Source: Pseudomonas sihuiensis | Lineage (GTDB): Bacteria; Pseudomonadota; Gammaproteobacteria; Pseudomonadales; Pseudomonadaceae | NCBI RefSeq assembly: GCF_900106015.1 | Contig: NZ_LT629797.1 | Span: 3,968,001 to 4,032,000 of the forward strand | Reading direction: 5' to 3' | Length of the DNA: 64,000 nt | Shown here: piece by piece, positions 2,792 through 64,000 of the stretch | Layout of the letters: each line of letters opens with the position of its first letter | Position numbering within the stretch: position 1 is the first letter of the stretch | The notes under the pieces: model-generated | The model's input: the letters and a program-made list of their open reading frames with translations, nothing else | What the model was told of the DNA's origin: nothing | Database searches by the model: none | Program-made: the position numbers and the translations under genes

Positions 2792-3736
2792 TTACAGGCT
2801 ATTCAGGCACTCGGTCAGGCCGCCTGCCAGGTTTTCCAGCAGTTGTTCATAGCCGTTGGCACTGACTGGCAGGGCGCCGCCGAGGGCATCGAGTTCCGCC
2901 AGTTTCACCGGCAAGCCGGCACTGAGGGTTTCGGCCAGGCGCGGGCGCAGCGGCGGCTCGCTGAACACGCAGCTCGGGCCGGTCTGTTGCAGCGTCTTGC
3001 GCATGGCAGCGACATGGCGCGCACCGGGCTGTACTTCGGTCAGCACGCTGAACACGCCGGCGTGCTTGAGGCCGTAGGCGGCCTCGAAATAGTCGAATGC
3101 TTCGTGGAAGACGAAATACGGCTTGCCCTGCAAAGCGGCCAGTTGCGGGCGAATGCGGCCATCGAGCGCATCCAGGCGCGCTTCGAAGGCTTGCAGATTG
3201 GCGGCGTAACGCGCGGCGTTGGCGGCATCCAGCTTGGCCAGGTCGGCGGCCATGCGGGCGGCGATCACCTTGGCGTTGTCGGCGGCCAACCACAGGTGGG
3301 CATCCAGGCTGCCCGGACGGTGATCATGGTCATGACCAAGCTCATCGCTGGCATGTTCGTGACCATGATCATGCTCGTCTTGGTCATGATCGTGTTCGTC
3401 GTGGCTATCGCCGAAATGGCGCAGGGTCATGCCGGGCAGATCCTGCACCGCCACCTGGGGCTTGTCGCGACTGCTCAGTACACGCGGTAGAAAACCCTCC
3501 ATGTCCGGACCGATCCAGTACAGCAGGTCGGCATCACGCACTCTCCGTACATCGGACGGCCGCAGCGCATAGTGGTGCGGCGAGGCACCGGGCGGCAGCA
3601 GCACCTCGGGTTCGCCGATGCCGTCCTGCACCGCCGCGGCGATCAGTTGCAGCGGTTTGATACTGGTCAGCACACGCACCTCGGCCTGGGCACTGGCGAC
3701 GAAAAACAGGGTAAAGAGACAGAAAAGACGCAACAC
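2792..3736 (-). CDS. znuA: Zinc ABC transporter periplasmic binding protein ZnuA
   Basis: A 314-residue cluster A-I (ZnuA/TroA family) solute-binding protein that captures Zn2+ in the periplasm for ZnuBC. It has a cleavable signal peptide (MLRLFCLFTLFFVASAQA). Metal-ligand histidines are expected in GASPHHYALRPSD (about residue 53) and in LDAHLWLA and FHEAFDYF further on. Between them is a loop of about 30 residues, 108-140, packed with His, Asp and Glu, typical of ZnuA and absent from Mn-type TroA. The start is a GTG at 3736; the ATG at 3743 is out of frame. The gene is divergent from zur-znuC-znuB, and the short intergenic region holds a Zur-box-like sequence. Confidence 0.96.
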   Translation of the reverse strand: MLRLFCLFTLFFVASAQAEVRVLTSIKPLQLIAAAVQDGIGEPEVLLPPGASPHHYALRPSDVRRVRDADLLYWIGPDMEGFLPRVLSSRDKPQVAVQDLPGMTLRHFGDSHDEHDHDQDEHDHGHEHASDELGHDHDHRPGSLDAHLWLAADNAKVIAARMAADLAKLDAANAARYAANLQAFEARLDALDGRIRPQLAALQGKPYFVFHEAFDYFEAAYGLKHAGVFSVLTEVQPGARHVAAMRKTLQQTGPSCVFSEPPLRPRLAETLSAGLPVKLAELDALGGALPVSANGYEQLLENLAGGLTECLNSL

Positions 3737-3763
3737 GGGGCATACTCGGATGGAATTGAACGG

Positions 3764-3776
3764 GTAATATAATAAC
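3764..3776. promoter_or_regulatory. Candidate Zur box between znuA and zur
   Basis: GTAATATAATAAC is an imperfect inverted repeat that resembles the Zur operator core GTTAT-N3-ATAAC. It lies 28 bp from the znuA start and 27 bp from the zur ATG, so one site could repress both directions. It matches less well than the boxes at 34767 and 62466. That would fit weaker binding, but this is inference. Confidence 0.65.
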
Positions 3777-3802
3777 GTCTCTCACCAGCGCCGTCCTTGC
3801 CC

Positions 3803-4288
3803 ATGACCGACACACCCCTGGCTGCACGCCCTCATGACCACTCCCGTTGCGTCAGCCATGCACTGGCCGAGGCCGAGGCCATCTGCGCGCGCCAGGGCCT
3901 GCGCCTGACTGCCCTGCGCAAGCGCGTGCTGGAACTGGTCTGGGCCAGCCACAAGCCGCTAGGCGCTTATGACATCCTCGGTGTATTGAGCGACGAAGAC
4001 GGTCGCCGCGCGGCGCCACCGACGGTTTACCGCGCGCTGGATTTCCTGCTGGAAAACGGCCTGGTGCACCGCATCGCCTCCCTCAACGCCTTCGTCGGCT
4101 GCAGCCACCCTGAGCACGCGCATCAGGGCCAGTTTCTGATCTGCCGTAGCTGCCACGCCGCCACCGAACTGGAGCAACCAGCGATCAGCCAGGCCATCGT
4201 CGACGGGGCGGCCGGCGTCGGTTTCGTCGTCGAAAGCCAGACCGTGGAAGTGGTCGGCCTCTGCGCAGGCTGCAAGGGCACGGCATGA
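3803..4288 (+). CDS. zur: Zinc uptake regulator Zur (Fur family)
   Basis: A 161-residue Fur-family repressor that uses Zn2+ as co-repressor. The winged helix spans about 25-90 ([13 protein letters not shown]...[19 protein letters not shown]). The C-terminal part carries the structural zinc cysteines (CRSCH near 113 and CAGC at the C-terminus) and the regulatory His cluster HPEHAHQG. The ATG at 3803 is preferred over the in-frame TTG at 3797. The stop overlaps the znuC start (ATGA), so zur, znuC and znuB form one operon and Zur probably controls its own synthesis through the box at 3764. In P. aeruginosa this gene is also called np20. Confidence 0.96.
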
Positions 4289-5073
4289 GCGACGCGCTGA
4301 TCCGTCTCGACGGGGTCGCTGTCAGCTTCAACGGCCAGCCTGTGCTGGACGACGTGCAGCTGAGCGTACAACCCGGCGAGATCGTCACCCTGATCGGGCC
4401 CAACGGTGCGGGCAAGACCACCCTGGTGCGCGTGGTGCTCGGCCTGCTGCAGCCTGAGCGTGGCAACGTGCGTCGGGCGCCACGCCTGCGCATCGGCTAC
4501 ATGCCACAAAAACTCCACGTCGACGCCACCTTGCCGCTGTCGGTGCTGCGTTTCCTGCGCCTGGTACCGGGGGTGGATCGCAAACGCGTCCTGGCAGCAC
4601 TGGCCGAGGTCGGTGCGGAACAGGTGATCGACAGCCCGCTGCAGAGCATTTCCGGTGGCGAGATGCAGCGCGTGCTGCTGGCCCGCGCGCTGCTGCGCGA
4701 GCCACAACTGCTGGTGCTCGACGAGCCGGTGCAGGGCGTCGATGTCGCCGGCCAGGCCGAGCTGTATCGACTGATCTCGCGACTGCGCGAGCGCCATGGC
4801 TGTGGCGTGCTGATGGTCTCGCATGACCTGCATCTGGTGATGAGCGCCACCGATCAGGTGGTCTGTCTCAACCGCCATGTCTGCTGCTCCGGCCACCCGG
4901 AGCAGGTCAGCGGCGACCCGGCGTTCATCGAACTGTTCGGTCAGGACGCCAAGAGCCTCGCCGTCTACCACCACCATCATGACCACGCGCACGACCTGCA
5001 TGGCGGCGTGGTTCAGCCCGGCCTGACCATCCACGGCCCGGCTCACGTTCATGGCCCTGGTTGCAAACACTGA
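4285..5073 (+). CDS. znuC: Zinc ABC transporter ATP-binding protein ZnuC
   Basis: A 262-residue ABC ATPase that drives Zn2+ import through ZnuB. Walker A is GPNGAGKTT (near residue 36), the signature ISGGEMQR is near 128, and Walker B LLVLDEP is near 149. The C-terminus is unusually histidine-rich ([13 protein letters not shown] and [12 protein letters not shown]). Such a cytoplasmic His tail is common in ZnuC and may sense or buffer zinc. The start overlaps the zur stop, and the TGA overlaps the znuB ATG (TGATG). Confidence 0.96.
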
Positions 5074-5861
5074 TGCCCGATTTCCTCCTCAACGCCCTGC
5101 TCGCCGGCCTTACCCTGGCCCTGGTGGCCGGCCCGCTCGGCTCCTTCGTGGTGTGGCGGCGCATGGCCTATTTTGGCGACACCCTGTCCCATGCTGCCCT
5201 GCTTGGCGTGGCATTGGGGCTGATGCTCGACGTCAGCCCGACCCTGACGGTGACCGTCGGCTGCGTGCTGCTCGCCGTACTGCTGGTGACCCTGCAGCAG
5301 CGCCAGCCGCTGGCCTCCGACACCCTGCTGGGCATCCTCGCCCACAGCACCCTGTCGCTGGGTCTGGTGGCGCTGAGTTTCATGCATGACGTGCGCATCG
5401 ACCTGATGAGCTACCTGTTCGGCGACCTGCTCGCCGTCAGCCCCAGCGATCTGGCCTGGATCATCGGCGGCAGCGCGCTGGTGCTGGCGCTGCTGGCTTG
5501 GTTGTGGCGACCGCTGCTGGCGATCACCGTGCACGAGGAACTGGCACGGGTCGAAGGCCTGCCGGTGGCGGCGATTCGCCTGGCGCTGATGCTGCTGATT
5601 GCCGTGGTGATCGCCGTGGCGATGAAGATCGTCGGCGTACTGCTGATCACCTCGCTGTTGATCATCCCCGCGGCCGCTGCCCAGCGCCACGCGCGCACGC
5701 CGGAGCAGATGGCCGTGGGCGCCAGTCTGCTCGGGCTGCTGGCGGTGTGCTGCGGCCTGGCGCTGTCCTGGTATCAGGACACGCCGGCCGGGCCATCCAT
5801 CGTGGTCAGTGCCGCTGCGTTGTTCCTGGCCAGTTTCGCCCTGCCCAAGCGCAGCGGTTGA
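5073..5861 (+). CDS. znuB: Zinc ABC transporter permease ZnuB
   Basis: A 262-residue inner-membrane protein of the ABC-3 permease family with seven to eight hydrophobic segments; it forms the Zn2+ channel with ZnuC. The typical N-terminal pattern GSFVVWRRMAYFGDTLSHAA is present near residues 24-43. The ATG at 5073 overlaps the znuC TGA, and an in-frame TTG twelve bases upstream is not needed. It is the last gene of the zur operon and is followed by a palindromic repeat rather than a clear terminator. Confidence 0.96.
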   Translation: MPDFLLNALLAGLTLALVAGPLGSFVVWRRMAYFGDTLSHAALLGVALGLMLDVSPTLTVTVGCVLLAVLLVTLQQRQPLASDTLLGILAHSTLSLGLVALSFMHDVRIDLMSYLFGDLLAVSPSDLAWIIGGSALVLALLAWLWRPLLAITVHEELARVEGLPVAAIRLALMLLIAVVIAVAMKIVGVLLITSLLIIPAAAAQRHARTPEQMAVGASLLGLLAVCCGLALSWYQDTPAGPSIVVSAAALFLASFALPKRSG

Positions 5862-7077: not shown

Positions 7078-8085
7078 GTGATCCAGTTTCAATCCGTCCA
7101 CAAAGCCTACCGCGTCGCCGGTCGCGAGATTCCGGCGCTGCAGCCCACCACGCTGCAGGTCGGCAGCGGCCAGGTGTTCGGCATCATCGGCCATTCCGGC
7201 GCCGGCAAGAGCACCCTGCTGCGCCTGATCAACCGCCTGGAGGAACCCTCCGGCGGTCGCATCGAGATCGACGGCGTCGATGTCACCGCCCTCGATGCCA
7301 ATGGCCTGCGTCGCTTCCGCCAGCAGGTCGGGATGATCTTCCAGCACTTCAACCTGCTGTCGTCGAAGACCGTCGCCGACAACATCGCCATGCCGCTGCG
7401 CCTGGCCGGCGAGCTGAGCCGCGCCGAGATCGACGCCCGCGTCGCCGAGCTGCTGGCCCGCGTCGGCCTGCAGGATCACGCCAACAAATACCCCGCGCAG
7501 CTCTCCGGTGGGCAGAAGCAGCGCGTCGGCATCGCCCGTGCGCTGAGCACGCGACCGAAGATCTTGCTGTGCGACGAGGCCACCAGCGCCCTCGACCCGC
7601 AGACCACCACCGCCGTGCTGCACCTGCTGGCCGAGATCAACCGCGAACTGGGCCTGACCATCGTGCTGATCACCCACGAGATGGACGTGATCCGCCGCGT
7701 CTGCGACCGCGTGGCGGTGATGGATGCCGGCGTCATCGTCGAAGAAGGCCCGGTGGCCGAGGTGTTCCTGCACCCGCAGCACCCGACCACCAAGCGTTTC
7801 GTGCAGGAGTCCGAGCATGTCGACGAAGCCGAACAGCGCGATGACTTCGCTCATGTCGAAGGCCGCATCCTGCGCCTGACCTTCCAGGGCGAAGCCACCT
7901 ACGCACCGCTGCTGGGCACCGTGGCCCGCGAGACCGGTGTGGACTACAGCATCCTCGCCGGGCGCATCGACCGCATCAAGGACACCCCCTACGGCCAGCT
8001 CACCCTGGCCCTGACCGGTGGCGACATCGACGCCGCGCTGGCGCGCTTCGAAGCCGCCGACGTGCATCTGGAGGTACTGCGCTGA
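7078..8085 (+). CDS. metN: Methionine ABC transporter ATP-binding protein MetN
   Basis: A 335-residue ATPase for import of D/L-methionine. Walker [10 protein letters not shown] is at 38-46, the signature LSGGQKQR at about 142, and Walker [14 protein letters not shown] at about 162. The C-terminal NIL domain (about 260-335) is the regulatory methionine-binding module of MetN. The start is GTG at 7078 with AAGG about 10 bases upstream. The TGA overlaps the metI ATG. Upstream (6907-7077) I saw no SAM riboswitch; the control signal is not evident. Confidence 0.95.
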
Positions 8086-8753
8086 TGCTCGAACAACTGC
8101 TGCCCAACGTGTTCTGGCCGGAAATCTGGCAGGCCAGCCTCGACACCCTGAACATGCTGCTCGGCTCGATGCTGTTCACCGTGCTGCTCGGCCTGCCACT
8201 TGGCGTGCTGCTGTTCCTCACCGGCCCGCGCCAGCTGTTCGAGCAGAAGGCTCTGTATGGCGCGCTGTCGCTGGTGGTGAACATCCTGCGCTCGGTGCCC
8301 TTCGTCATCCTCTTGATCCTGATGATCCCCTTCACCGAGCTGCTGGTCGGCACCTCGCTGGGCGTGGCTGGCGCCATTCCGCCGCTGGTGGTGGGTGCCA
8401 CGCCGTTCTTCGCGCGCCTGGTGGAAACCGCCCTGCGCGAGGTGGAACGCGGCATCATCGAGGCGACCCAGGCCATGGGCGCCACTACCTGGCAGATCAT
8501 CACCCGCGCGCTGCTGCCCGAGGCGTTGCCCGGCCTGCTAGCGGCCACCACCGTCACCGCGATTACCCTGGTGTCGTACACCGCCATGAGCGGCCTGATC
8601 GGCGGCGGCGGCCTCGGCGACCTGGCCGTGCGCTACGGCTACCAGCGCTACCAACCGGACGTGATGGCCGTGACCGTGATCCTGCTGCTGATTCTGGTGC
8701 AGGTGCTGCAGATGGTCGGGGATCGCCTGGTGGTGCATTTTTCCCGTAAATGA
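8085..8753 (+). CDS. metI: Methionine ABC transporter permease MetI
   Basis: A 222-residue inner-membrane permease of the methionine uptake family, with five hydrophobic helices. The cytoplasmic coupling loop EATQAMGATTWQIITRALLPEALPGL (residues about 126-151) is the EAA motif that contacts MetN. It is translationally coupled to metN (TGATG) and followed by metQ after 61 bases. Length and motif are typical. Confidence 0.95.
   Translation: MLEQLLPNVFWPEIWQASLDTLNMLLGSMLFTVLLGLPLGVLLFLTGPRQLFEQKALYGALSLVVNILRSVPFVILLILMIPFTELLVGTSLGVAGAIPPLVVGATPFFARLVETALREVERGIIEATQAMGATTWQIITRALLPEALPGLLAATTVTAITLVSYTAMSGLIGGGGLGDLAVRYGYQRYQPDVMAVTVILLLILVQVLQMVGDRLVVHFSRK

Positions 8754-32833: not shown

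Positions 32834-32834
<1 letters not shown>
32190..32834 (-). CDS. DUF1826 protein, possible 2-oxoglutarate/Fe(II)-type fold
   Basis: A 214-residue protein of family DUF1826. It carries CPRFHVDHVPLRLITSY (His125, Asp127) and later GLIHRSPRPP (His194) with Arg204/205. That spacing resembles the HxD...H facial triad of Fe(II)/2-oxoglutarate dioxygenases; this is my inference and not an established function. The ATG overlaps the stop of the COG0523 gene (TGATG), so the two are co-translated. Its partner and the nearby Zur box tie it to zinc limitation. Confidence 0.82.
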
Positions 32835-34039
<1,205 letters not shown>

Positions 34040-34053
34040 GGGGTGTTCCTCGT

Positions 34054-34741
34054 TCAGTCACGGTCACGCTGATGTTTTTCGCGCTGCTCCTGACGCTCCT
34101 TGGCTTCGATGCACAGGGTCGCGGTCGGGCGCAGCAGCAGGCGCTTGAGGCCGATGGGTTCGCCGATTGAGGGTCTGCCCCCCGTTTCGTCGTGGTCGCG
34201 CCGGCGCCAGTTTTTGCGCGGGGCTAGGCGCGAGACGCGAAGTTTGGTGCTCCAAATGAGCCGTCGAGCAACAACGCACCGCGCAAAAACTGGCCCGGCC
34301 CTTCGGGTTGCGCGGCAAATGGCGCCATGCGGCGTTGCGGGACTTGGCAAGGGACCACCATTCCCTGCGTCCCGCGCCTTGCCTGGCGCCATTTGGCGCA
34401 GCAACGCGGCTCGCGCCGAAACGGGGGGCAGACCCTGGGCACCAGCCGTATTCGCCACGCGCCAGGCGTTCGAGCGCCTGGTCGATCTTGTCCAGCAGCT
34501 TCTTTTCCCGCTCCAGCAGGCGCAGCTGCCACTGGCGTTGCTCCTCGGCGGCACCGATGTCGGCGACATCGCTGCTGATCTCGGGTTGGCGCAGCTCGGT
34601 GAATTCCTCCTCGATACGCGCCTGCAACTCGGCACGCTGAGTCAGCAGCAGCTCGCGGAAGAACTGCTGCTGGGCGTCGTTCATGTAGTCATCGGCTGGC
34701 TGAGCCAGCAGCTCGGCTTCGGTAGTCACGGTCAGGGTCAT
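34054..34741 (-). pseudogene. dksA2: dksA2 broken by a MITE-like element
   Basis: Residues 1-102 read as an intact DksA2: coiled-coil region MNDAQQQFFRELLLTQRAEL...RLLEREKKLLDKIDQALERLARGEYGWC. A 265 bp element (34171-34435) follows, and the normal C-terminus GEPIGLKRLLLRPTATLCIE resumes in another reading frame, ending at 34054. Because 265 is not a multiple of three, no single frame joins the halves. DksA2 is the zinc-independent substitute for the zinc-finger DksA that binds RNA polymerase with ppGpp. The product here would be a chimera with about 120 junk residues. It starts 26 bp from the Zur box shared with folE2. Confidence 0.93.
34171..34435. mobile_element. 265 bp MITE-like element with 19 bp perfect terminal repeats
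   Basis: The ends are GGGTCTGCCCCCCGTTTCG and its exact reverse complement CGAAACGGGGGGCAGACCC. Inside are further inverted pairs: CCAGTTTTTGCGCGG with CCGCGCAAAAACTGG, and CAAATGGCGCCA with TGGCGCCATTTG. There is no coding region. I see no clear target-site duplication; joining the flanks without the element restores the expected residue spacing of DksA2. It would need a transposase from elsewhere. No second copy was noticed in the window. Confidence 0.85.
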
Positions 34742-34766: not shown

Positions 34767-34781
34767 TGTTATAACATAACA
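34767..34781. promoter_or_regulatory. Zur box between dksA2 and folE2
   Basis: TGTTATAACATAACA closely matches the gammaproteobacterial Zur operator. The same 15 bases, and four flanking ones, occur upstream of the TonB receptor at 62466-62480. It lies between divergent dksA2 (26 bp) and folE2 (32 bp), both known Zur targets in P. aeruginosa, so it should repress both when zinc is plentiful. Confidence 0.92.
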
Positions 34782-34812: not shown

Positions 34813-35703
34813 ATGAACGAACAGCCCCTGCCGGACATAGCCGCCCAAGCCACCCACCATGACCTGCCGCTGGACTGGGTCGGCATGGCCGGCATCGCCC
34901 TGCCCATTCGTCTGGCGGACGCCGTCGTGACTGCCAGCGTCGATATCGGCGTGAGCCTCGACGATGCCGGCGCGCGCGGCATCCACATGTCGCGCCTGTA
35001 CCTGGCGGCGCAGCGCCTGGTGCATCAGCCATTGAACGTGCCGGCGGTGTTGCAGGTGCTGGACGACTGCCTGAGCAGTCATCAGGAGCTGTCCGACAGC
35101 GCCACCCTGACTCTGCGCGGCGAAGTGCCGCTCAAGCGTCCGGCGCTGGTCAGCCCGCTGCACGGCTGGAAGACCTACCCCTTCGAACTGCGCGCCCGGC
35201 AGAATGGCCGGGGCGTGAACATCGAGCTGCAGGTCGAGGTCAGCTACTCGTCCACCTGCCCTTGCTCTGCCGCACTGGCACGGCAGCTGATCCAGCAACG
35301 CTTCGCCTGGGACTTTCCCGACCAGCAGGTGGATTACTCGAGCGTGCTCGACTGGCTCGGCTCGACCCAGGGCATCCTCGCCACACCGCACAGCCAGCGC
35401 AGCACGGCGACCCTGCAACTGCGCCTGGCGCCAGGCTGCATCGACCTGCCCGTGCTGGCACTGATCGACAGCGCCGAACAGGCCCTCGGCACACCGGTGC
35501 AGACGGCAGTGAAGCGCGCCGACGAACAGGCCTTCGCCCTCGCCAACGGGCAGAACCTGATGTTCTGCGAGGACGCCGCACGCCGTTTGCACCGCGCCCT
35601 GCGTCAGTTGCCGCTAGCCAGCGCATTCCGCGTGCGGGTGGTGCACGCGGAAAGCCTGCACGCCCACGACGCGGTGGCCGAAAGCAGCTGGAATTGGTGT
35701 TGA
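34813..35703 (+). CDS. folE2: GTP cyclohydrolase IB FolE2
   Basis: A 296-residue type IB GTP cyclohydrolase that makes dihydroneopterin triphosphate for folate and queuosine. It can use metals other than zinc, unlike FolE. The active-site Cys region is YSSTCPCSAALARQLIQQRF (about 143-162); other conserved blocks are GMAGIALPIRL and MFCEDAARRL. The Zur box directly upstream means it is expressed in zinc starvation. Length and start are typical. Confidence 0.95.
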   Translation: MNEQPLPDIAAQATHHDLPLDWVGMAGIALPIRLADAVVTASVDIGVSLDDAGARGIHMSRLYLAAQRLVHQPLNVPAVLQVLDDCLSSHQELSDSATLTLRGEVPLKRPALVSPLHGWKTYPFELRARQNGRGVNIELQVEVSYSSTCPCSAALARQLIQQRFAWDFPDQQVDYSSVLDWLGSTQGILATPHSQRSTATLQLRLAPGCIDLPVLALIDSAEQALGTPVQTAVKRADEQAFALANGQNLMFCEDAARRLHRALRQLPLASAFRVRVVHAESLHAHDAVAESSWNWC

Positions 35704-57438: not shown

Positions 57439-58446
57439 CTAGCGGCGCCTGAGCAGGGCCACGAAGAACGCTCCGCCAATGGCGGCGGTGACGATGCCGA
57501 TGGGCAGATCCTGCGGCGCCAGCCAGGTGCGCGCGGCGACATCGACCCAGACCAGGAACAGCGCCCCCAGCAGCGCCGCCACCGGCAACACGCGACGATG
57601 CTCGGCGCCGACCAGAAAGCGCGCCACGTGCGGCAGCATCAGCCCGACGAAACCGATGGCGCCGGACAGCGACACCAGCACGCCAGTGAGCAGCGAGGCC
57701 ACCACGAATACCAGTAGGCGCACCCGCCTAGGCTCCAGGCCCAGGCTCACCGCACTCTGCTCGCCGGCCATCAGCGCATTCAGCGCGCGACCCAGGCCGA
57801 GCAGCACGGCCAGCGCCAACGCCAGGCACAGCGCCGGCAGCCAGAGCAGTTCCCAGCGCGCCAGGCCCAGGCCGCCAAGCATCCAGAACAGCACCGAGCT
57901 GGCCGCATGGGGGTTGCCCAGGTACAGCAACAGGTTGCTCGCTGCCATCATCACGAACGACACCGCCACGCCGGCCAGCAGCAGGCGCTCGCTGTGCAGC
58001 CGACCACCGCGGCTGGCAATCGCCAGCACCAGCAGCATGCTCGCCATGGCGCCGACGAAGGCCGCCAGCGGCAAGCTGAGCATCCCGGCGAACTCGCCCA
58101 GGTAGAGCACCACGAGCACCGCACCGAAGGCTGCGCCAGAGCTGACGCCGAGCAGGTGCGGGTCGGCCAGCGGGTTGCGCGTTACCGCCTGCAGCGCCGT
58201 ACCCACCAGGGCCAACCCAGCGCCCACCAACGCACCGAGCAGCACCCGTGGCGCGCGCAGTTGCCAGACGATGCTGTCCTGGCCGACGCTCACCGCCACT
58301 GCGGGCTCGATGCCGAACAGCTGCCGAGCGAGTATTGCCAGCACACGCTCCAGCGGCACCTGAGCCGCACCGAAGACCAGCGACAGCGCACAGGACAGCG
58401 CCAGCAATACCGTCAGGCCGAGCAGCAGCAAGTGAAAACGCGTCAC
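57439..58446 (-). CDS. FecCD-type ABC permease of the Zur/B12 operon
   Basis: A 335-residue permease of the BtuC/FecCD family with about ten helices. The typical blocks are RAPRVLLGALVGAGLALVGTALQAVTRNPLADPHLLGVSSGAAFGAVL and VSLSGAIGFVGLMLPHVARFL. It is the inner-membrane channel of the TonB-linked system. The start is GTG at 58446, overlapping the binding-protein TGA (GTGA). It is last in an operon in which every junction overlaps. The family carries B12, heme, siderophores or metal complexes. Confidence 0.92.
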   Translation of the reverse strand: MTRFHLLLLGLTVLLALSCALSLVFGAAQVPLERVLAILARQLFGIEPAVAVSVGQDSIVWQLRAPRVLLGALVGAGLALVGTALQAVTRNPLADPHLLGVSSGAAFGAVLVVLYLGEFAGMLSLPLAAFVGAMASMLLVLAIASRGGRLHSERLLLAGVAVSFVMMAASNLLLYLGNPHAASSVLFWMLGGLGLARWELLWLPALCLALALAVLLGLGRALNALMAGEQSAVSLGLEPRRVRLLVFVVASLLTGVLVSLSGAIGFVGLMLPHVARFLVGAEHRRVLPVAALLGALFLVWVDVAARTWLAPQDLPIGIVTAAIGGAFFVALLRRR

Positions 58447-59471
58447 TGCGAGAAGGCCTCGGGATGCAGCGCGGCAGCCAGGGTTTCGATGGCGGCGACG
58501 TTGTCCAGGCTCGGTGTGACGGCGAGATAGGAGAGCACCACGAAGCGCTGCTGGCGAATCGCCGTGACGCCCTGCAGCGCCGGGTGCTGCAGGAGAAAAT
58601 CGCGCTTCTGCGCCGCCGTGCGTTCGCCATAATCGACGATTAGGATCAGCTCCGGGTCCTGCTCGACCACGGCTTCCCAACCCACCTGCATCCAGTTGGC
58701 CGCTACGCCGTCCATCACGTTGCGCCCACCGGCCGCGGCGATCAGCGACTGCGGCATGCCCAAACGGCCAGCACTGAAGGGCAGGTCCTCGCCGCTGTCG
58801 TAGACGAACACCCGCGGTCGCGTCGGTTGCTCACCGAGCTGCGCACTTACCGCTGCCACCCGCGCCTGCATGCCCTGTACCAGGGTCTCGGCACGTTCCT
58901 CGACGGCGAAGATGCGGCCGAGATTGCGCAGGTCGGTATAGACATCGTCCAGGCTGGCGACGCGCTTGGGCATAACGTGCGCACAGGACTCGCTGAGCTC
59001 GTACACCGGGATGCCGAAGCGCGCCAGGCTGGCCGGGGTGACCTCGCCGCCGATGCGCATGCCGTAGTTCCAGCCGGCGAAGAAGAAGTCGGCGTCGGCA
59101 TCGAGCAGATTCTCCAGCGACGGATAGCGCGCGGCCAGTTCGGGCAGCCCATCGAGCTGCGCCTGCATGGCCGGCTCGACGGTCTTCCAGCCGCTGATGC
59201 CGCTGTAGCCGACCATGCGCTGCCTCAGGCCGAGGTCCAGGAGCATGGCGGTCAGGGTGATGTCGTGGCTGACCGCGCGTTGCGGCGGGCGCTCGATGGT
59301 CAGTTGGCGATCGCAGCTGGTGACGGTGACGGCCCAGGCGGGGCTGGCCAGCGCCAGCAGGATTGCACCAACGAGTGTAGGAGCGAGCTTTGCTCGCGAA
59401 GCTTCTGTCGTTTCCCAGGGTTCGCGAGCAGAGCTCGCTCCTACAGATGCAGCCGTGCATGAACGCTTCAT
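58443..59471 (-). CDS. BtuF/FecB-type periplasmic binding protein with REP in its leader
   Basis: A 342-residue binding protein of the class III fold (Cobalamin/metal-chelate type): VSHDITLTAMLLDLGLRQRMVGYSGI...LLDADADFFFAGWNYGM. The true signal peptide looks like LAPTLVGAILLALASPAWA. In front of it is an in-frame extension of about 30 residues (CTAASVGASSAREPWETTEA) encoded by a REP palindrome at 59377-59446. The ATG at 59471 overlaps the ATPase TGA (TGATG). The long polar n-region is odd for export and may lower secretion or be trimmed. Ligand unknown. Confidence 0.88.
   Translation of the reverse strand: MKRSCTAASVGASSAREPWETTEASRAKLAPTLVGAILLALASPAWAVTVTSCDRQLTIERPPQRAVSHDITLTAMLLDLGLRQRMVGYSGISGWKTVEPAMQAQLDGLPELAARYPSLENLLDADADFFFAGWNYGMRIGGEVTPASLARFGIPVYELSESCAHVMPKRVASLDDVYTDLRNLGRIFAVEERAETLVQGMQARVAAVSAQLGEQPTRPRVFVYDSGEDLPFSAGRLGMPQSLIAAAGGRNVMDGVAANWMQVGWEAVVEQDPELILIVDYGERTAAQKRDFLLQHPALQGVTAIRQQRFVVLSYLAVTPSLDNVAAIETLAAALHPEAFSQ
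59377..59446. repeat. REP palindrome inside the signal-peptide region
   Basis: TGTAGGAGCGAGCTTTGCTC and its inverted counterpart GAGCAGAGCTCGCTCCTACA enclose about 30 bases. This is a standard Pseudomonas REP pair, but it lies within the coding region of the binding protein and keeps the frame open. On the mRNA it would fold just after the start codon. Confidence 0.85.
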
Positions 59472-60241
59472 CAAACAATCCAAGTAATGCGCGGATGACC
59501 CGCCAGTGGATGGGTATCGACCAGCGCCTGCAGGCCGAACACCTGCTGCAGCAACTCGGCGGTGAGCACCTCGGCAGGCGTACCGATGGCCACCAGACGG
59601 CCCTGGTCGAGCACGCAGAGGCGGTCGCAGAAGGCCGCCGCCAGGTTTAGATCATGGAAGCTGGCCAGCGTCGCCAGGCCCAGCGCCTTGATCTGGCCCA
59701 GCAGTTCGAGCTGGTAGCGCGGGTCGAGGTGGTTGGTCGGCTCGTCGAGGATCAGCACTTGCGGCTGCTGCACCAGGGCCCGGGCGAGCAGAGCGCGCTG
59801 CTTCTCGCCACCCGAGAGGCAGGCGAAGGGCTGCTGCGCCAGGTCGCTCAAACCGACACGGGCCAGCGCCTCATCCACCAGACGCAGATCCTCGGCATCG
59901 TCGCCATCGAACAGCCCCTTGTGCGGCGTACGGCCCATGGCCGCCACCTCGTGCACGCGCAGGCCGAAGTCCTGCGGAAATTCCTGCAGCACCACGGCCA
60001 CGCGCTGCGCACTCCAGCGCGGCGGGCGCTGCCACAGCGCCTCGCCGTCCAGCTTGACCTGGCCGGCGCTGGGCCGCTGGAAGCGATAGGCACAGCGCAG
60101 CAGGCTGGTCTTGCCGCTGCCGTTGGGGCCGATCAACCCCAGCAGCTCGCCGTCGCCGACGTCCAAGTCGATGCCCTCGAGCAGCGGACGCTGGCCGTCG
60201 GGCGACCAGGCCAGCGCCTGAATACGCAAACGCGGAGTCAT
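59471..60241 (-). CDS. ABC ATPase of the Zur/B12 operon (BtuD/FecE-like)
   Basis: A 256-residue ATPase. Walker A GPNGSGKTS is near 36, the signature CLSGGEKQRALLARAL near 139 and Walker B VLILDEPTNHLDP near 160. It resembles the FecE/BtuD group that powers TonB-linked uptake. The ATG at 60241 overlaps the receptor TGA (TGATG), and the TGA overlaps the binding-protein ATG. An upstream in-frame start would sit inside the receptor gene and is not needed. Confidence 0.93.
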   Translation of the reverse strand: MTPRLRIQALAWSPDGQRPLLEGIDLDVGDGELLGLIGPNGSGKTSLLRCAYRFQRPSAGQVKLDGEALWQRPPRWSAQRVAVVLQEFPQDFGLRVHEVAAMGRTPHKGLFDGDDAEDLRLVDEALARVGLSDLAQQPFACLSGGEKQRALLARALVQQPQVLILDEPTNHLDPRYQLELLGQIKALGLATLASFHDLNLAAAFCDRLCVLDQGRLVAIGTPAEVLTAELLQQVFGLQALVDTHPLAGHPRITWIV

Positions 60242-62349
60242 CAGAAGCTGTAATCCGCGGTGACGAAGAACGAACGTGGCGCCCCCAGGTACCACTGCTC
60301 GCCGTCGCTGCTGGCGGTGGTGGCGTACTGGCGGTCGAACAGGTTGTTCAGCTCCAGACCCAGGCGCACATCCGGCAACGCCTGCCAGGCGATGTTGGCG
60401 TCGACCACGGTGTAGCCAGGCACCTTGGCGGTGTTGGCCGTATCGGCATAACGCGCATCGACATAACGCGCGCCGATACCGGCATCCACGCCACTACCGA
60501 GCGCCTTGTTCAGCCACAGGTTGGCGGTGCGCTTAGGCACGTTGGTCGGGCGATTGCCGCTGCGGTCGCCGCCGCCTTCGACGAAGTCGTCGTACTCGGC
60601 GCGTACGAAGGCGGCGTTGGCCGACACCTGCCAGCCCCGACCCAGCGCCAATTCCAGGGTGGCCTCCAGGCCATCGGAGGATTGCTGGCCGATCTGCTCG
60701 GTGGGCGAGGTCGGGGTTGCGCGGCTGAGCAGCTTCTTCTTGACGATATGGTAGGCGGCCAGCGTCCACTCGCCCTGCCCACCCCAGAACATCTGCTTGA
60801 GGCCGATCTCGCTCTGCCTGGCTTCGCTGAGGTCGAACTGCTGCTGAGTCGGGTTCAGGGTCAGCAAGTTGTTCACCCCCTCGGTGCTGGTGGCGTACTG
60901 ACCGTACAGCGACAGCTCGGGGGTCAGGGCGAAGACCAGCCCGGCACGCCAATTGTCGCCACTCAGGCTGCGGTCGACGCTGCTGCCATCGATCAGGTTG
61001 TCGCGCTGCAGATGCACCTGATCACGGCGCACCCCGGTGACCAGCGACAGGCGCTCGGTCAGCTGGGTACGGTTCTCGGCGAACAGCGAGAACTGCCGCG
61101 CCAGGTTGCGCTCGCGCGGGCCGTAGCCGAGCGGGTCGGTGCTCTGGTACTGACCGCCGCCGGAGCCGTTCAGCGGCACGCTGTCGCTGAAGCTGCTGGC
61201 GAAATCGTGCTGGCGGGCGAAGTGGATGCGGTTGTAATCCACACCAATCACGGTACGGCTATCGAGGCCGAACAGGGTGTGATCGAGGGTGAAGGTCTGG
61301 CGGTCGCCGACCTGTTCCTGGGTGTGCTTGATCTCGTAGAACTCGCTGCGCTCGACCGTATCGCCCGGCTGCCAGCGAAAGGCCTCGGCATTGCGCCAGT
61401 AGCGCTGGGTTTTGATGTAGTAGAGCTGGTTGCTGGCACTGAGCACGTCGTTGATGTGCCAGTCGCTTACCAGGCGGGTGATCTGGTCGTTGTAGCGAAT
61501 GTCGGCATTGGCGACGTTGTAGTTACGTTCGCGGATGCTCTCGCGGTACTTGCCGGCCACCAGCGGCGTGCCGAGATAACGCATCGGGCTCTGGTCGCCA
61601 TGGTCATGGGACAGGGTGAAGCTCAGGTCGTCATGGGCGTCCCAGCGCAGGGCCGCGCTGAGCGCCAGGCTGTCCGAATCACCGCGGTCGACCCAACCAT
61701 TGCTGGCCTGCTGATTGATGTTGAAGCGGTAGCTCAGTTCGTCACTCAGCGAACCGCCGCTGTCCAGCGCAGCCTGGCGGCGGTCGTCGCTGCCGTAGCC
61801 GAGGCGCAGCTGGTTGCGGATCTCGCCGGCGAAGGGCTTCTTCGGCACCACGTTGATCACCGCGCCGGTGGCGCCCTCACCATAGAGCACCGAAGCCGGG
61901 CCGCGCAGCACGTCGATGCGCGCTACCGACCAGGTGTCCACCGGGAAGGTCACGGTGCCGGCGCCGACGTACTGGCGGGTGCCATCGTACAGCTGCATGG
62001 TCGCCGAATGGCCGGTGAAGCCGCGCGCCGACAGCGCGGTGCCGCCATTGCCGGGCGAGCCGATGCTGCTGATACCCGGCGTGCGGGTCACGGCGTCCTG
62101 CACCGTGAGGTTGTTGCGCCCACGTACCTCGGCGCCGCTCAGGCTGCTGGTGCTGGCCGGGGTTTGCAGGGCCGACAGCTCCAGGCGCGAGCCGGACGTG
62201 GTGGGCGTATGCAGATCGCTCTCGCCTTCCTCGGCAGCGGACGCCTGGACGGTGACGGCAGGGAGATCGACATGAGATTCGCTGGCCATGGCCACACCGC
62301 CGACCAGCAGCGCGAATGGCAGGGAGCAGAGGCGTAGAAGGTGCTGCAC
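60241..62349 (-). CDS. TonB-dependent receptor of the Zur/B12 operon (PA2911-like)
   Basis: A 702-residue outer-membrane receptor, start of a four-gene operon. The signal peptide is MQHLLRLCSLPFALLVGGVA with cleavage near AMA-SES. The plug (about 45-160) contains NLTVQDAVTRTPGISSIG and VARIDVLRGPASVLYGEG; the barrel ends GAPRSFFVTADYSF. The GTG at 62349 gives a normal leader; any longer reading would run through the Zur box. PAO1 PA2911-PA2914 is a Zur-controlled operon of the same make-up, from memory. The substrate may be a zinc or cobalt complex or a corrinoid. Confidence 0.9.
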   Translation of the reverse strand: MQHLLRLCSLPFALLVGGVAMASESHVDLPAVTVQASAAEEGESDLHTPTTSGSRLELSALQTPASTSSLSGAEVRGRNNLTVQDAVTRTPGISSIGSPGNGGTALSARGFTGHSATMQLYDGTRQYVGAGTVTFPVDTWSVARIDVLRGPASVLYGEGATGAVINVVPKKPFAGEIRNQLRLGYGSDDRRQAALDSGGSLSDELSYRFNINQQASNGWVDRGDSDSLALSAALRWDAHDDLSFTLSHDHGDQSPMRYLGTPLVAGKYRESIRERNYNVANADIRYNDQITRLVSDWHINDVLSASNQLYYIKTQRYWRNAEAFRWQPGDTVERSEFYEIKHTQEQVGDRQTFTLDHTLFGLDSRTVIGVDYNRIHFARQHDFASSFSDSVPLNGSGGGQYQSTDPLGYGPRERNLARQFSLFAENRTQLTERLSLVTGVRRDQVHLQRDNLIDGSSVDRSLSGDNWRAGLVFALTPELSLYGQYATSTEGVNNLLTLNPTQQQFDLSEARQSEIGLKQMFWGGQGEWTLAAYHIVKKKLLSRATPTSPTEQIGQQSSDGLEATLELALGRGWQVSANAAFVRAEYDDFVEGGGDRSGNRPTNVPKRTANLWLNKALGSGVDAGIGARYVDARYADTANTAKVPGYTVVDANIAWQALPDVRLGLELNNLFDRQYATTASSDGEQWYLGAPRSFFVTADYSF

Positions 62350-62457
62350 GCGAGTGATTCCGGATCTTCCAGGAGAGTCGTCAGGACGCTCCAGGCTCCG
62401 GGTGTGCGCGTTGAAGGCGGTCAGCCTTGACGCTTCGCAGTCGGTGCCTGAGGCGAT

Positions 62458-62482
62458 AATGTTATTGTTATAACATAACATT
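62458..62482. promoter_or_regulatory. Zur box upstream of the TonB receptor operon
   Basis: A 25 bp inverted repeat with core TGTTATAACATAACA, identical over 19 bases to the box at folE2/dksA2 (34765-34783). It lies 109 bp upstream of the receptor GTG and downstream of the cobalamin riboswitch on the same strand, so a Zur-repressed promoter probably starts here. Confidence 0.93.
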
Positions 62483-62693
62483 ATCGTTTTTCGCAGGTAG
62501 CCTGAAACGGGCTCACGCCCTTCGTTCAGGCATGCAGAAGAGAGGTTCTTGTAGCGGAAATGGCGCGCCATATTGCTTCCATCGCAAAGAGAAAAGGCAC
62601 GGCAATCCGATGGAAATGCGCAACAGCAGACAGGGGCACGGCGGCGCCCTACTGGAGTCAACGCCCGCCCACCGCGGGTTGCCAGACACAAAC

Positions 62694-62864
62694 GACTCCA
62701 GGCCGGTCTCCGGGCTTGCGAGGGTCATGAACGCATCGCCTTCCCATGCGCGGGGCGCACAGTGGCGTATCGATGCGGTCGCTCGCTTACCGTTGCGGGG
62801 GCAGCGTCGGACTTCAACCGACTTCCCGTTTCACCTCACGCGCGGCGGCGTGAGACACCTGAAG
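62694..62864 (-). ncRNA. Cobalamin (B12) riboswitch
   Basis: On the minus strand the conserved core reads AACGGGAAGTCGGTTGAAGT, then TGCCCCCGCAACGGTAAGCG, and ends in the B12 box AAGCCCGGAGACCGGCCT. The P1 stem pairs CTTCAGG (62864-62858) with CCTGGAG (62702-62696). Just downstream CTGGAGTC can instead pair with GACTCCAG (62659-62652), which would break P1. That is a plausible ligand-controlled switch. The next annotated gene on this strand is the TonB receptor, 345 bases away, with the Zur box in between. The rest of 62350-62979 holds no gene I can support. Confidence 0.93.
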
Positions 62865-62979
62865 CGGGGCGGATATGACCACCCACACCCGCTCAAGTCA
62901 AGGCGCGGGGGCAATTGCGGGAGGCGCTTTAGCGGCGACTGCTCGTAGCCTGGATTGGCCGCAGGCGTAATCCGAGTTG

Positions 62980-63678
62980 CTAATTGTTGCCCTGCTCATC
63001 GATGCGCAACTCCGGCAACGCCCTACCCGCCACCAGGCGCTCATCGACCAGGCGAATCACCGCCGCCTCGTCCTTGATGCCGTACCACTCGCCCTGTGGA
63101 TAAAGGCTCGCAGTCGGCCCCAGATCGCAGGGGAACTGGCACTGGCTGCGGGTGATATGCACACCGCCCTCGCACTCCAGCTTTCCCGCGGCCTTGAGCC
63201 GCTGACGCAGAGTTTTCCACAGGCCCAGCGCGCCCTTGCGGGTGCAGCGCGGGCCGTTGCACAGCAGCAGGCGCTGCGCATGCGGTGGGATCTGCGACCA
63301 GGCGTGATGCGCAGGAACGGGCGGCACATCGCTGCAGGGCAGATGCGCTTCGCGATGCGCCAGCAGTGCGCTCAGGCCATCGAGCCAGGTGTCCTCCAGT
63401 GCCGTGCAGACCACGAACACCTCGGCGCCGTCGCCCCGTTCGGCGATGCGCTCGCGCAGCCAATCACGGTGCGCAGCATCGGCGCGCGGCTCCAGATCGA
63501 CCACCAGCAGCGGGCGCGGCGCCTCATCGATGGCCTGCCAGAAGCCATCCTGCTCGCTGTCATGCAGATGCGCCTCGCCGAGCAACGCTTCAATGCGCTG
63601 CTGCAGACGCTCGGACGATGCCCCACGACCCAGGCCGGGGCCGATGAACAGAACGCGGGCGTAGGGGGTTTGGCTCAT
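62980..63678 (-). CDS. Thioredoxin-like [2Fe-2S] ferredoxin-domain protein
   Basis: A 232-residue protein. The N-terminal half (about 1-120, ARVLFIGPGLGRGASSERLQQRI) resembles a CbiX/chelatase-like or sirohydrochlorin-type fold. The C-terminal half is a thioredoxin-like ferredoxin: RLLLCNGPRCTRKGA (Cys near 138 and 143) and ITRSQCQFPCDLGPTASLYP (Cys near 178 and 182). It lies directly after cobK in the cobalamin gene block. A role in electron supply or metal handling for corrin synthesis is inference. The ATG at 63678 is preferred over an extension into REP sequence. Confidence 0.8.
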   Translation of the reverse strand: MSQTPYARVLFIGPGLGRGASSERLQQRIEALLGEAHLHDSEQDGFWQAIDEAPRPLLVVDLEPRADAAHRDWLRERIAERGDGAEVFVVCTALEDTWLDGLSALLAHREAHLPCSDVPPVPAHHAWSQIPPHAQRLLLCNGPRCTRKGALGLWKTLRQRLKAAGKLECEGGVHITRSQCQFPCDLGPTASLYPQGEWYGIKDEAAVIRLVDERLVAGRALPELRIDEQGNN

Positions 63679-63829
63679 GACGGTCTCCAGAACGGGCCGG
63701 CAGTCTAGCAGCGCGTCGTGGTCCGGAGGCAATCCGGCGGGTAATAGAAGGCCCGGTGCGCGCGGCGCACCCTACGGAATCAGCGCAGGCGTAAGGCCGC
63801 CAGGCCGGCGTTGGCGGGTTTCACCCGCC

Positions 63830-64000
63830 CTACAAGGACAGCGCCTCGTAGAGAGCGCCCAACTCCGCGAACTCACGCGTTACCGCCGGCAACTCAGGCC
63901 GGCGCAGCAGCAACACCGGCAAGCCCAGCTCACGGGCCACCTGCAACTTTGGCTCGGTGGAGGCGCTGCCGCTGTTCTTGCTTACCAGCACGTCGCAGCG
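63830..64000 (-). CDS. cobK: Precorrin-6A reductase CobK, C-terminal part
   Basis: The last 56 codons of a gene that continues beyond base 64000. The text CDVLVSKNSGSASTEPKLQV...LGLPVLLLRRPELP is the conserved C-terminus of CobK/CbiJ precorrin-6A reductase, including the KNSGxxxTxxKL NADPH-side motif. It reduces precorrin-6A in aerobic cobalamin synthesis. Only the 3' end is in the window. The stop is followed by the GGTGCGCGCGGCGCACCCTA repeat arm and then the ferredoxin-like gene. Confidence 0.9.
   Translation of the reverse strand, partial: RCDVLVSKNSGSASTEPKLQVARELGLPVLLLRRPELPAVTREFAELGALYEALSL

Follow-up and report, generated by a model that had tools for sequence, protein, structure and literature searches.

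The closest described counterpart of the operon considered here is the PA2911-PA2914 cluster of Pseudomonas aeruginosa, presented in three papers as a Zur-regulated importer of pyochelin-cobalt (PMC11481552, PMC13083405, PMC4542158). Zinc- or Zur-dependent expression is reported for it (PMC11481552, PMC4542158), with zinc repressing PA2911 and PA2914 affecting the handling of pyochelin and cobalt (PMC11481552), and a link of the cluster to cobalt or cobalamin has already been supposed (PMC4542158). The Zur box of PA2911 is placed more than 300 bp upstream of its ATG, outside the 150-bp scan of a review (PMC10393844), and the word riboswitch does not occur in the text of these four publications. 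Here we analyze an operon of this type in a window of 64,000 nucleotides from Pseudomonas sihuiensis (contig NZ_LT629797.1, positions 3,968,001 to 4,032,000; all coordinates below are those of the window), in which both a cobalamin riboswitch and a Zur box precede the gene of a TonB receptor. Judged from the sequence, this one gene appears to have two nested starts, a long one controlled by B12 and a short one controlled by Zur. Zur control is already published for the P. aeruginosa operon, and we found no paper on dual control: none of the papers searched names both PA2911 and a riboswitch, and among the matches listed on cobalamin or B12 riboswitches in combination with Zur, or else with cobalt and receptors of Pseudomonas, no title or beginning of an abstract names such an operon.

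The gene order and the orthology of the receptor assign the window operon to the PA2911-PA2914 type, the four-gene order being the same when compared in PA7. The PA7 ortholog is 63% identical to the window receptor and also has a cobalamin aptamer (162 bits in nhmmer); however, its Zur box lies upstream of the aptamer (at -381, with the aptamer from -311 to -116), whereas that of the window lies downstream, within a reading frame that has two starts. In PA7 the box is about 370 nt away from the ATG of this ortholog, and a complete aptamer stands between them (box and aptamer at about 4117-4381 of the PA7 locus). The original prediction knew of no described system with both controls on one operon, and this still holds for the literature that we found, although PA7 itself carries both in the reverse order. 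With the RF00174 riboswitches of B12 uptake and synthesis genes the window shares a full aptamer and the probable masking of a ribosome site, but it differs from them by the second, protein-controlled start in the same gene. A catalogue of bacterial B12 elements, reportedly compiled by Rodionov and others in 2003, may include the aptamer, though not the Zur box. The Zur-only operons of the P. fluorescens group share the receptor family with the window (all three ABC genes are seen in four of six loci with flanking sequence, the other two stretches being short or lacking them) but have no detected riboswitch. In a study of the Bc1 riboswitch of Bacillus thuringiensis a riboswitch and the string Zur appear in the same paper (34 occurrences), yet that riboswitch has another ligand, cyclic di-GMP (c-di-GMP), in another organism (PMC11218506).

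What the original prediction missed is that translation from the riboswitch's ATG (62569-62571) would cross the Zur box in an open frame and continue into the receptor, so that two start codons are involved and not only two transcripts. The counts that follow cover the 22 dual loci, that is relatives with both elements, whose Zur box is downstream of the riboswitch. In all 22 the frame from ATG to receptor is free of stops through the Zur box, while both alternative frames are interrupted in every locus (by 1-3 and 1-5 stops). The start of the Zur core and the first base of the riboswitch ATG are 92 nt apart in every locus, and the length from this ATG to the lower start is 222 nt in 16 loci, 153 nt in five and 216 nt in one, always a multiple of three. 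The lower start is GTG throughout, a codon that serves only 16 of the 84 other valines in the same alignment, and it is preceded at 6-15 nt by GGA in 22 of 22 loci, against 49 of 1269 background windows. Both elements, the two conserved starts, the open frame and the states found in relatives are established from the sequence.

The stretch placed before the signal peptide of the short form comprises 74 residues in the window and 51-74 across the dual loci. Its sequences fall into five clusters at a cut of 80% identity, a divergence sufficient for stops to have arisen. Neutral evolution was simulated (F81) along the tree of the extension itself, starting from an open root and with no change allowed in the Zur box. 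With each of three roots, not one of 4000 runs ended with all 22 frames open, and on average 16-18 of the 22 sequences gained a stop. Such selection against stops argues that the long frame matters. Among riboswitch-only relatives, the distance from the aptamer to GGAA-ATG is mostly 104-118 nt in the examples inspected (184 nt in one, L067), and in the five such loci that were translated the ATG following the riboswitch is the receptor's own start and begins the signal peptide.

Table 1. Control elements and genes of the receptor operon (window coordinates).
Feature	Position	Strand	Remarks
-35-like TTGACT, putative promoter of the riboswitch transcript	62896..62901	-	candidate -10 TCATAT at 62873-62878
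Cobalamin riboswitch aptamer	62684..62877	-	Rfam RF00174, 118.5 bits, model 1-189 of 189
Candidate anti-Shine-Dalgarno TTTCCATCG	62608..62616	-	could pair with CGATGGAAG
Shine-Dalgarno GGAA of the riboswitch-controlled start	62577..62580	-	in-frame GGAA-ATG in 113/116 riboswitch loci
ATG of the long form	62569..62571	-	in frame in 22/22 dual loci with downstream Zur box
Zur box, 31-nt palindrome	62455..62485	-	core GTTATGTTATAAC at 62467-62479; within the long reading frame
GTG of the short form	62347..62349	-	222 nt after the long ATG
Receptor gene, long form	60241..62571	-	TonB plug and barrel: PF07715, PF00593, TIGR01783
Receptor gene, short form	60241-62349	-	
ABC ATPase	59471..60241	-	PF00005; ATG shares bases with the receptor stop (TGATG)
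Periplasmic binding protein (Peripla_BP_2)	58443..59471	-	PF01497; start overlaps the ATPase stop
FecCD permease	57439..58446	-	PF01032; GTG overlaps the stop of the binding protein gene

The full cobalamin riboswitch that had been claimed upstream of the operon, on the same strand, is confirmed by a match over the whole aptamer model, well beyond the family's gathering score of 31.5 bits. Upstream of it, a TTGAC-N17-19-TnnnnT arrangement is found 26-31 nt before the aptamer in 112 of the 116 non-redundant riboswitch loci and in none of 116 shuffled copies. This fits the long transcript of the original prediction, which proposed one long and one short messenger, but the two elements are not simply lined up in a leader, the Zur box lying within the reading frame under riboswitch control. 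The same prediction had named a terminator between riboswitch and Zur box as evidence that would speak against it; a scan of 62300-63000 for intrinsic terminators found none between the two elements.

The riboswitch likely acts by translational control, through masking of the ribosome site of the long start (table 1). In each of the 22 dual loci whose Zur box is downstream, a candidate helix of 8-9 bp could mask the Shine-Dalgarno (SD) sequence; one of at least 7 bp can form in 76 of the 113 riboswitch loci that have GGAA-ATG in frame, against 31% of shuffles; the search pattern found no such start in three further riboswitch loci (L065, L088 and L147). In the lowest-energy folds the SD is wholly paired in 87 of 113 loci and, in the window, at three of its four bases, though by a different helix. 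A second and weaker aptamer match (27-37 bits in nhmmer, at about 7920-8310) lies 3' of the receptor in P. putida-group loci (L093, L097, L101, L102, L109 and others).

The near-perfect Zur operator claimed upstream of the receptor is likewise borne out, as a 31-nt palindrome whose 15-mer has an exact second copy. Allowing up to two mismatches, the 15-mer TGTTATNNNATAACA gives two matches in the window, both exact (0.19 expected), and two matches occurred in none of 100 shuffled windows; with up to one mismatch the 5.48-Mb genome holds five sites, of which the only two exact ones are those of the window, and the reversed pattern has no match in this genome. A Zur box thus stands near the operon start beyond chance. 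The distance of 109 bp given for it depends on the limits of the box, being 105 nt from the 31-mer to the GTG or 117 nt from the core. The second exact box (34767-34781) lies between a dksA-like open reading frame (ORF, 34064-34741, minus strand) and a folE2-like ORF (34813-35703, plus strand), a pair adjoined by a COG0523-like ORF (32834-34039, minus strand); these three were named by reading their sequences, and such genes are typical Zur targets. A FUR-family protein, the second of the genome, is encoded at 3893-4252 (37.3 bits) and is taken to be Zur from its znu-like neighbours, so that the regulator itself would be encoded in the window. The surrounding region (2792-5861) contains znuA-like (minus strand), zur-like (plus strand), znuC-like and znuB-like ORFs, and genes resembling a zinc importer with its regulator share the 64-kb window with both exact Zur boxes.

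The distribution of the two elements was surveyed initially in an evenly drawn sample of 99 genomes of the genus, using a simple Zur scan and cmscan. A receptor ortholog is present in 42 of them (at least 58% identity, the next match dropping to 356 bits), with riboswitch only in 16, Zur only in 21 (weak in G071), both in four, and one lacking upstream DNA. A wider set combined 80 named loci, which as best matches to a window-led query over-represent the riboswitch, with a sample of the family, in which 103 of 398 genomes qualified at E<=1e-200, and a sample of the genus of P. aeruginosa, in which two of 25 genomes have the ortholog at E<=1e-150, both already included; PA7 stands for the species. 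Aptamers of the wider set were found by nhmmer, which agrees with cmscan on the upstream aptamer of the first 42 loci, an agreement that is partly by construction because 19 of the 23 aptamers in the nhmmer model came from these loci. Repeats included, the 231 loci comprise 117 with riboswitch only, 67 with Zur only, 43 with both and four with neither; the Zur scan matched one shuffled and two reversed upstream regions, out of 231 each. From the non-redundant count we removed partial receptors, loci repeating a mature protein already present and copies fetched again. Zur-like matches lying more than 700 nt upstream (G096 of the genus sample) were set aside.

The resulting 172 non-redundant relatives divide into 90 with riboswitch only, 52 with Zur only, 26 with both, two with neither (L196 and L199, of the fluorescens clade) and two with unusable upstream DNA (L095 with almost none, L025 with too little although an aptamer was seen). 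The comparative search for both elements that had been suggested for PA2911-type operons is positive in 26 of 172 relatives. The Zur box is downstream of the riboswitch in 22 of these 26 and upstream in four, of which L082 is doubtful, since its box, with nine of ten core matches, may serve a divergent gene; nine of ten is also the score of the downstream locus L053. Both elements are real and share the strand of the operon, and a group of relatives, the 22 loci with downstream Zur box, has conserved the pair. In Zur-only relatives no element was found other than the box, which lies about 60-160 nt ahead of the receptor.

A phylogenetic tree of the mature receptors (FastTree, rooted with four paralogs) has weakly supported deep branches. 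It shows a clade of 53 members in which no aptamer was found, 51 with Zur only and two with neither element, and places the Zur-downstream state in 21 of the 25 rows of the mendocina/oleovorans clade, the other four having the riboswitch only; outside this clade the state occurs in L164. The Zur-upstream state is seen in PA7, L209 and L213, plus the doubtful L082. L209 and L213 belong to one genus (code g15) with the distant genome L157, which has Zur only. In L209 and L213 the Zur box lies about 145-160 nt before the aptamer and the TTGAC promoter is missing, which suits a transcript starting at their upstream Zur box.

The fewest changes on the tree are 11 in Zur presence and two in riboswitch presence. 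However, the 5' control module moves separately from the receptor and recombines between lineages. Five riboswitch-only loci (L010, L011, L056, L142 and L073) have leaders 99-100% identical with receptors 78-95% identical, and L164 combines a dual module like that of the mendocina group (identity up to 99% in the aptamer and up to 90% in the leader) with a receptor nearer another lineage (85% vs 75-77% identity). The mature receptor gene of L073 is itself a mosaic, its identity to L056, L007, L084 and L164 ranging from about 60 to 97% per 240-nt block. Counting Zur gains by the tree alone was consequently discarded as an overcount, since recombination of the module implies fewer origins than 11; we read about five, in the mendocina/oleovorans group, in PA7, in the L209/L213 pair, in the fluorescens group and in L157.

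The cargo can be approached from the proteins and from the host genome. The receptor exceeds the cut-off of the siderophore-receptor family TIGR01783 (267 bits for 223.5) and falls under those of B12 receptors (94.6 of 599.7 bits for TIGR01779, 42.9 of 836 bits for BtuB), so it does not qualify as BtuB; the permease and the binding protein have BtuC/BtuF-like scores, also under the cut-offs. Pyochelin synthesis needs nonribosomal peptide synthetase (NRPS) enzymes. A genome-wide search for the NRPS condensation domain gave no match, and the best match to PchB in the genome stays under the cut-off (57.1 of 73.35 bits), from which we conclude that this genome probably makes no pyochelin; self-made pyochelin as cobalt ligand thus finds no basis in it. 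The weak PchB-like match lies about 3.5 kb from a Zur-like site with one mismatch, and a pyochelin cluster around it was considered and dropped, as the surrounding ORFs of at least 180 residues reveal none on reading. The host may still use pyochelin of other species, and the likeliest cargo, as far as sequence can tell, is a cobalt complex of another ligand or of one supplied by neighbours. The corrinoid importer of the original prediction does not follow from these data, the cargo in P. aeruginosa being reported as pyochelin-cobalt, while the link of the importer with zinc and cobalt fits published work on PA2911-2914 (PMC11481552, PMC13083405).

We consider it probable that the operon encodes an importer of metal complexes and that a single one of its genes houses both control modules, one nested within the other's reading frame. 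In the scheme that we infer, a promoter just 5' of the aptamer would yield a long mRNA. With plentiful B12 the riboswitch would block translation from the ATG at 62571; with low B12 this ATG would be used and the ribosome would pass the Zur box into the receptor, adding 74 residues. A second promoter, located at the Zur box and shut by Zur under ample zinc, would yield a short mRNA on which ribosomes start at the GTG (62349), with the signal peptide at the start of the short form. The overlapping genes would couple the ABC transporter to either receptor form, and the result would be close to an OR gate, the importer being made when either B12 or zinc is short. A cobalt complex, its likely cargo, would then supply B12 synthesis in one case and zinc replacement in the other. 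As for its origin, a Zur promoter with its own signal-peptide start would have been placed in frame into a formerly riboswitch-only gene. That both forms reach the outer membrane, as an OR gate in one frame, and that this B12-linked cobalt importer came under zinc-starvation control several times independently (by a Zur box downstream of the riboswitch, upstream of it or in its place) is a bolder proposal that we advance tentatively, with some doubt.

Several observations weigh against this nested scheme. A consensus promoter scan of 62300-63000 found no promoter, the TTGAC site included, and hence supports neither of the two proposed promoters. The candidate masking helix is missing from the lowest-energy fold of the window, whose leader is no more stable than shuffles (z 0.07); leader structure judged from energy alone was dropped for this lack of signal. 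The dN/dS ratio of the extension ranges from 0.36 to 1.25, mostly 0.5-1 in 18 chosen pairs, a weak constraint on amino acids which suggests that the extension may be tolerated rather than useful, and in the long form the signal peptide is preceded by about 75 residues, a possible obstacle to export. The four riboswitch-only rows among the 25 of the mendocina/oleovorans clade indicate that dual control is dispensable there. Moreover, Zur bound at its box could block the long transcript and so turn the OR into an AND. This leads to a serial arrangement with the riboswitch transcript as the principal messenger and Zur as an intragenic roadblock that would stop RNA polymerase under plentiful zinc, so that B12 and zinc would both have to be low for the importer to be made. 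It agrees with the position of the Zur box within a transcribed and translated stretch of all 22 downstream loci and with the serial order, Zur box upstream of riboswitch, in PA7, L209 and L213; but the invariant GTG with its GGA, 3' of the box, speaks for a short start of its own, and in Zur-only relatives the box is found before the receptor as sole element. We regard this arrangement as unlikely.

That the riboswitch is a leftover, with Zur in charge and the long start disused, seems to us improbable as well, and a shade more so. The aptamer-free clade indicates that such a hand-over can be complete, and the long form looks awkward for export; against this, the aptamer still scores 118.5 bits, the putative promoter and the candidate masking helix persist, and 22 of 22 loci have an open long frame where simulated drift would close most. 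The converse, a Zur box that is a chance palindrome or serves another gene and leaves the riboswitch in sole control, could appeal to the four boxless rows of the same clade, but it is hard to credit given two exact 15-mers in 5.48 Mb, the other lying between typical Zur targets, a box kept in 22 loci while the remaining extension splits into five clusters (80% cut), and the zinc repression described for the related P. aeruginosa operon (PMC11481552). Among these alternatives the cargo question deserves more weight: riboswitch control, the nearby cobK and the BtuC/BtuF-like scores, though under cut-offs, would suit an importer of corrinoids, B12 itself, with zinc control as a secondary feature. 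Since the receptor is far under the B12-receptor cut-offs and above that of TIGR01783, and reports on the P. aeruginosa counterpart have it acting on pyochelin-cobalt, this remains rather unlikely.

The receptor-ATPase-binding protein-permease operon itself is present as originally described, with Pfam matches to all four genes, and the sequence reveals start-stop overlaps at all three junctions. The riboswitch had been placed next to cobK; the C-terminal part of this gene is indeed nearby (63836-64000), but one ORF separates the two. This ORF (62980-63708, minus strand) belongs to no Pfam family and has a weak similarity to 2Fe-2S ferredoxins (NCBIfam E about 2e-4, under the cut-off).

PA2911-2914 has been studied as a cobalt-importing system of zinc starvation, and a B12 riboswitch stands before the receptor in the PA7 ortholog and in 116 of the 172 relatives; the B12 level may therefore confound experiments on the importer. 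The series of riboswitch-only, dual and Zur-only operons offers a testable case of a change of regulator without loss of function, and it lends evolutionary support to the idea that cobalt import helps bacteria short of zinc. If repeated recruitment to zinc control is true, these relatives would make up a natural series illustrating the exchange of one regulator for another.

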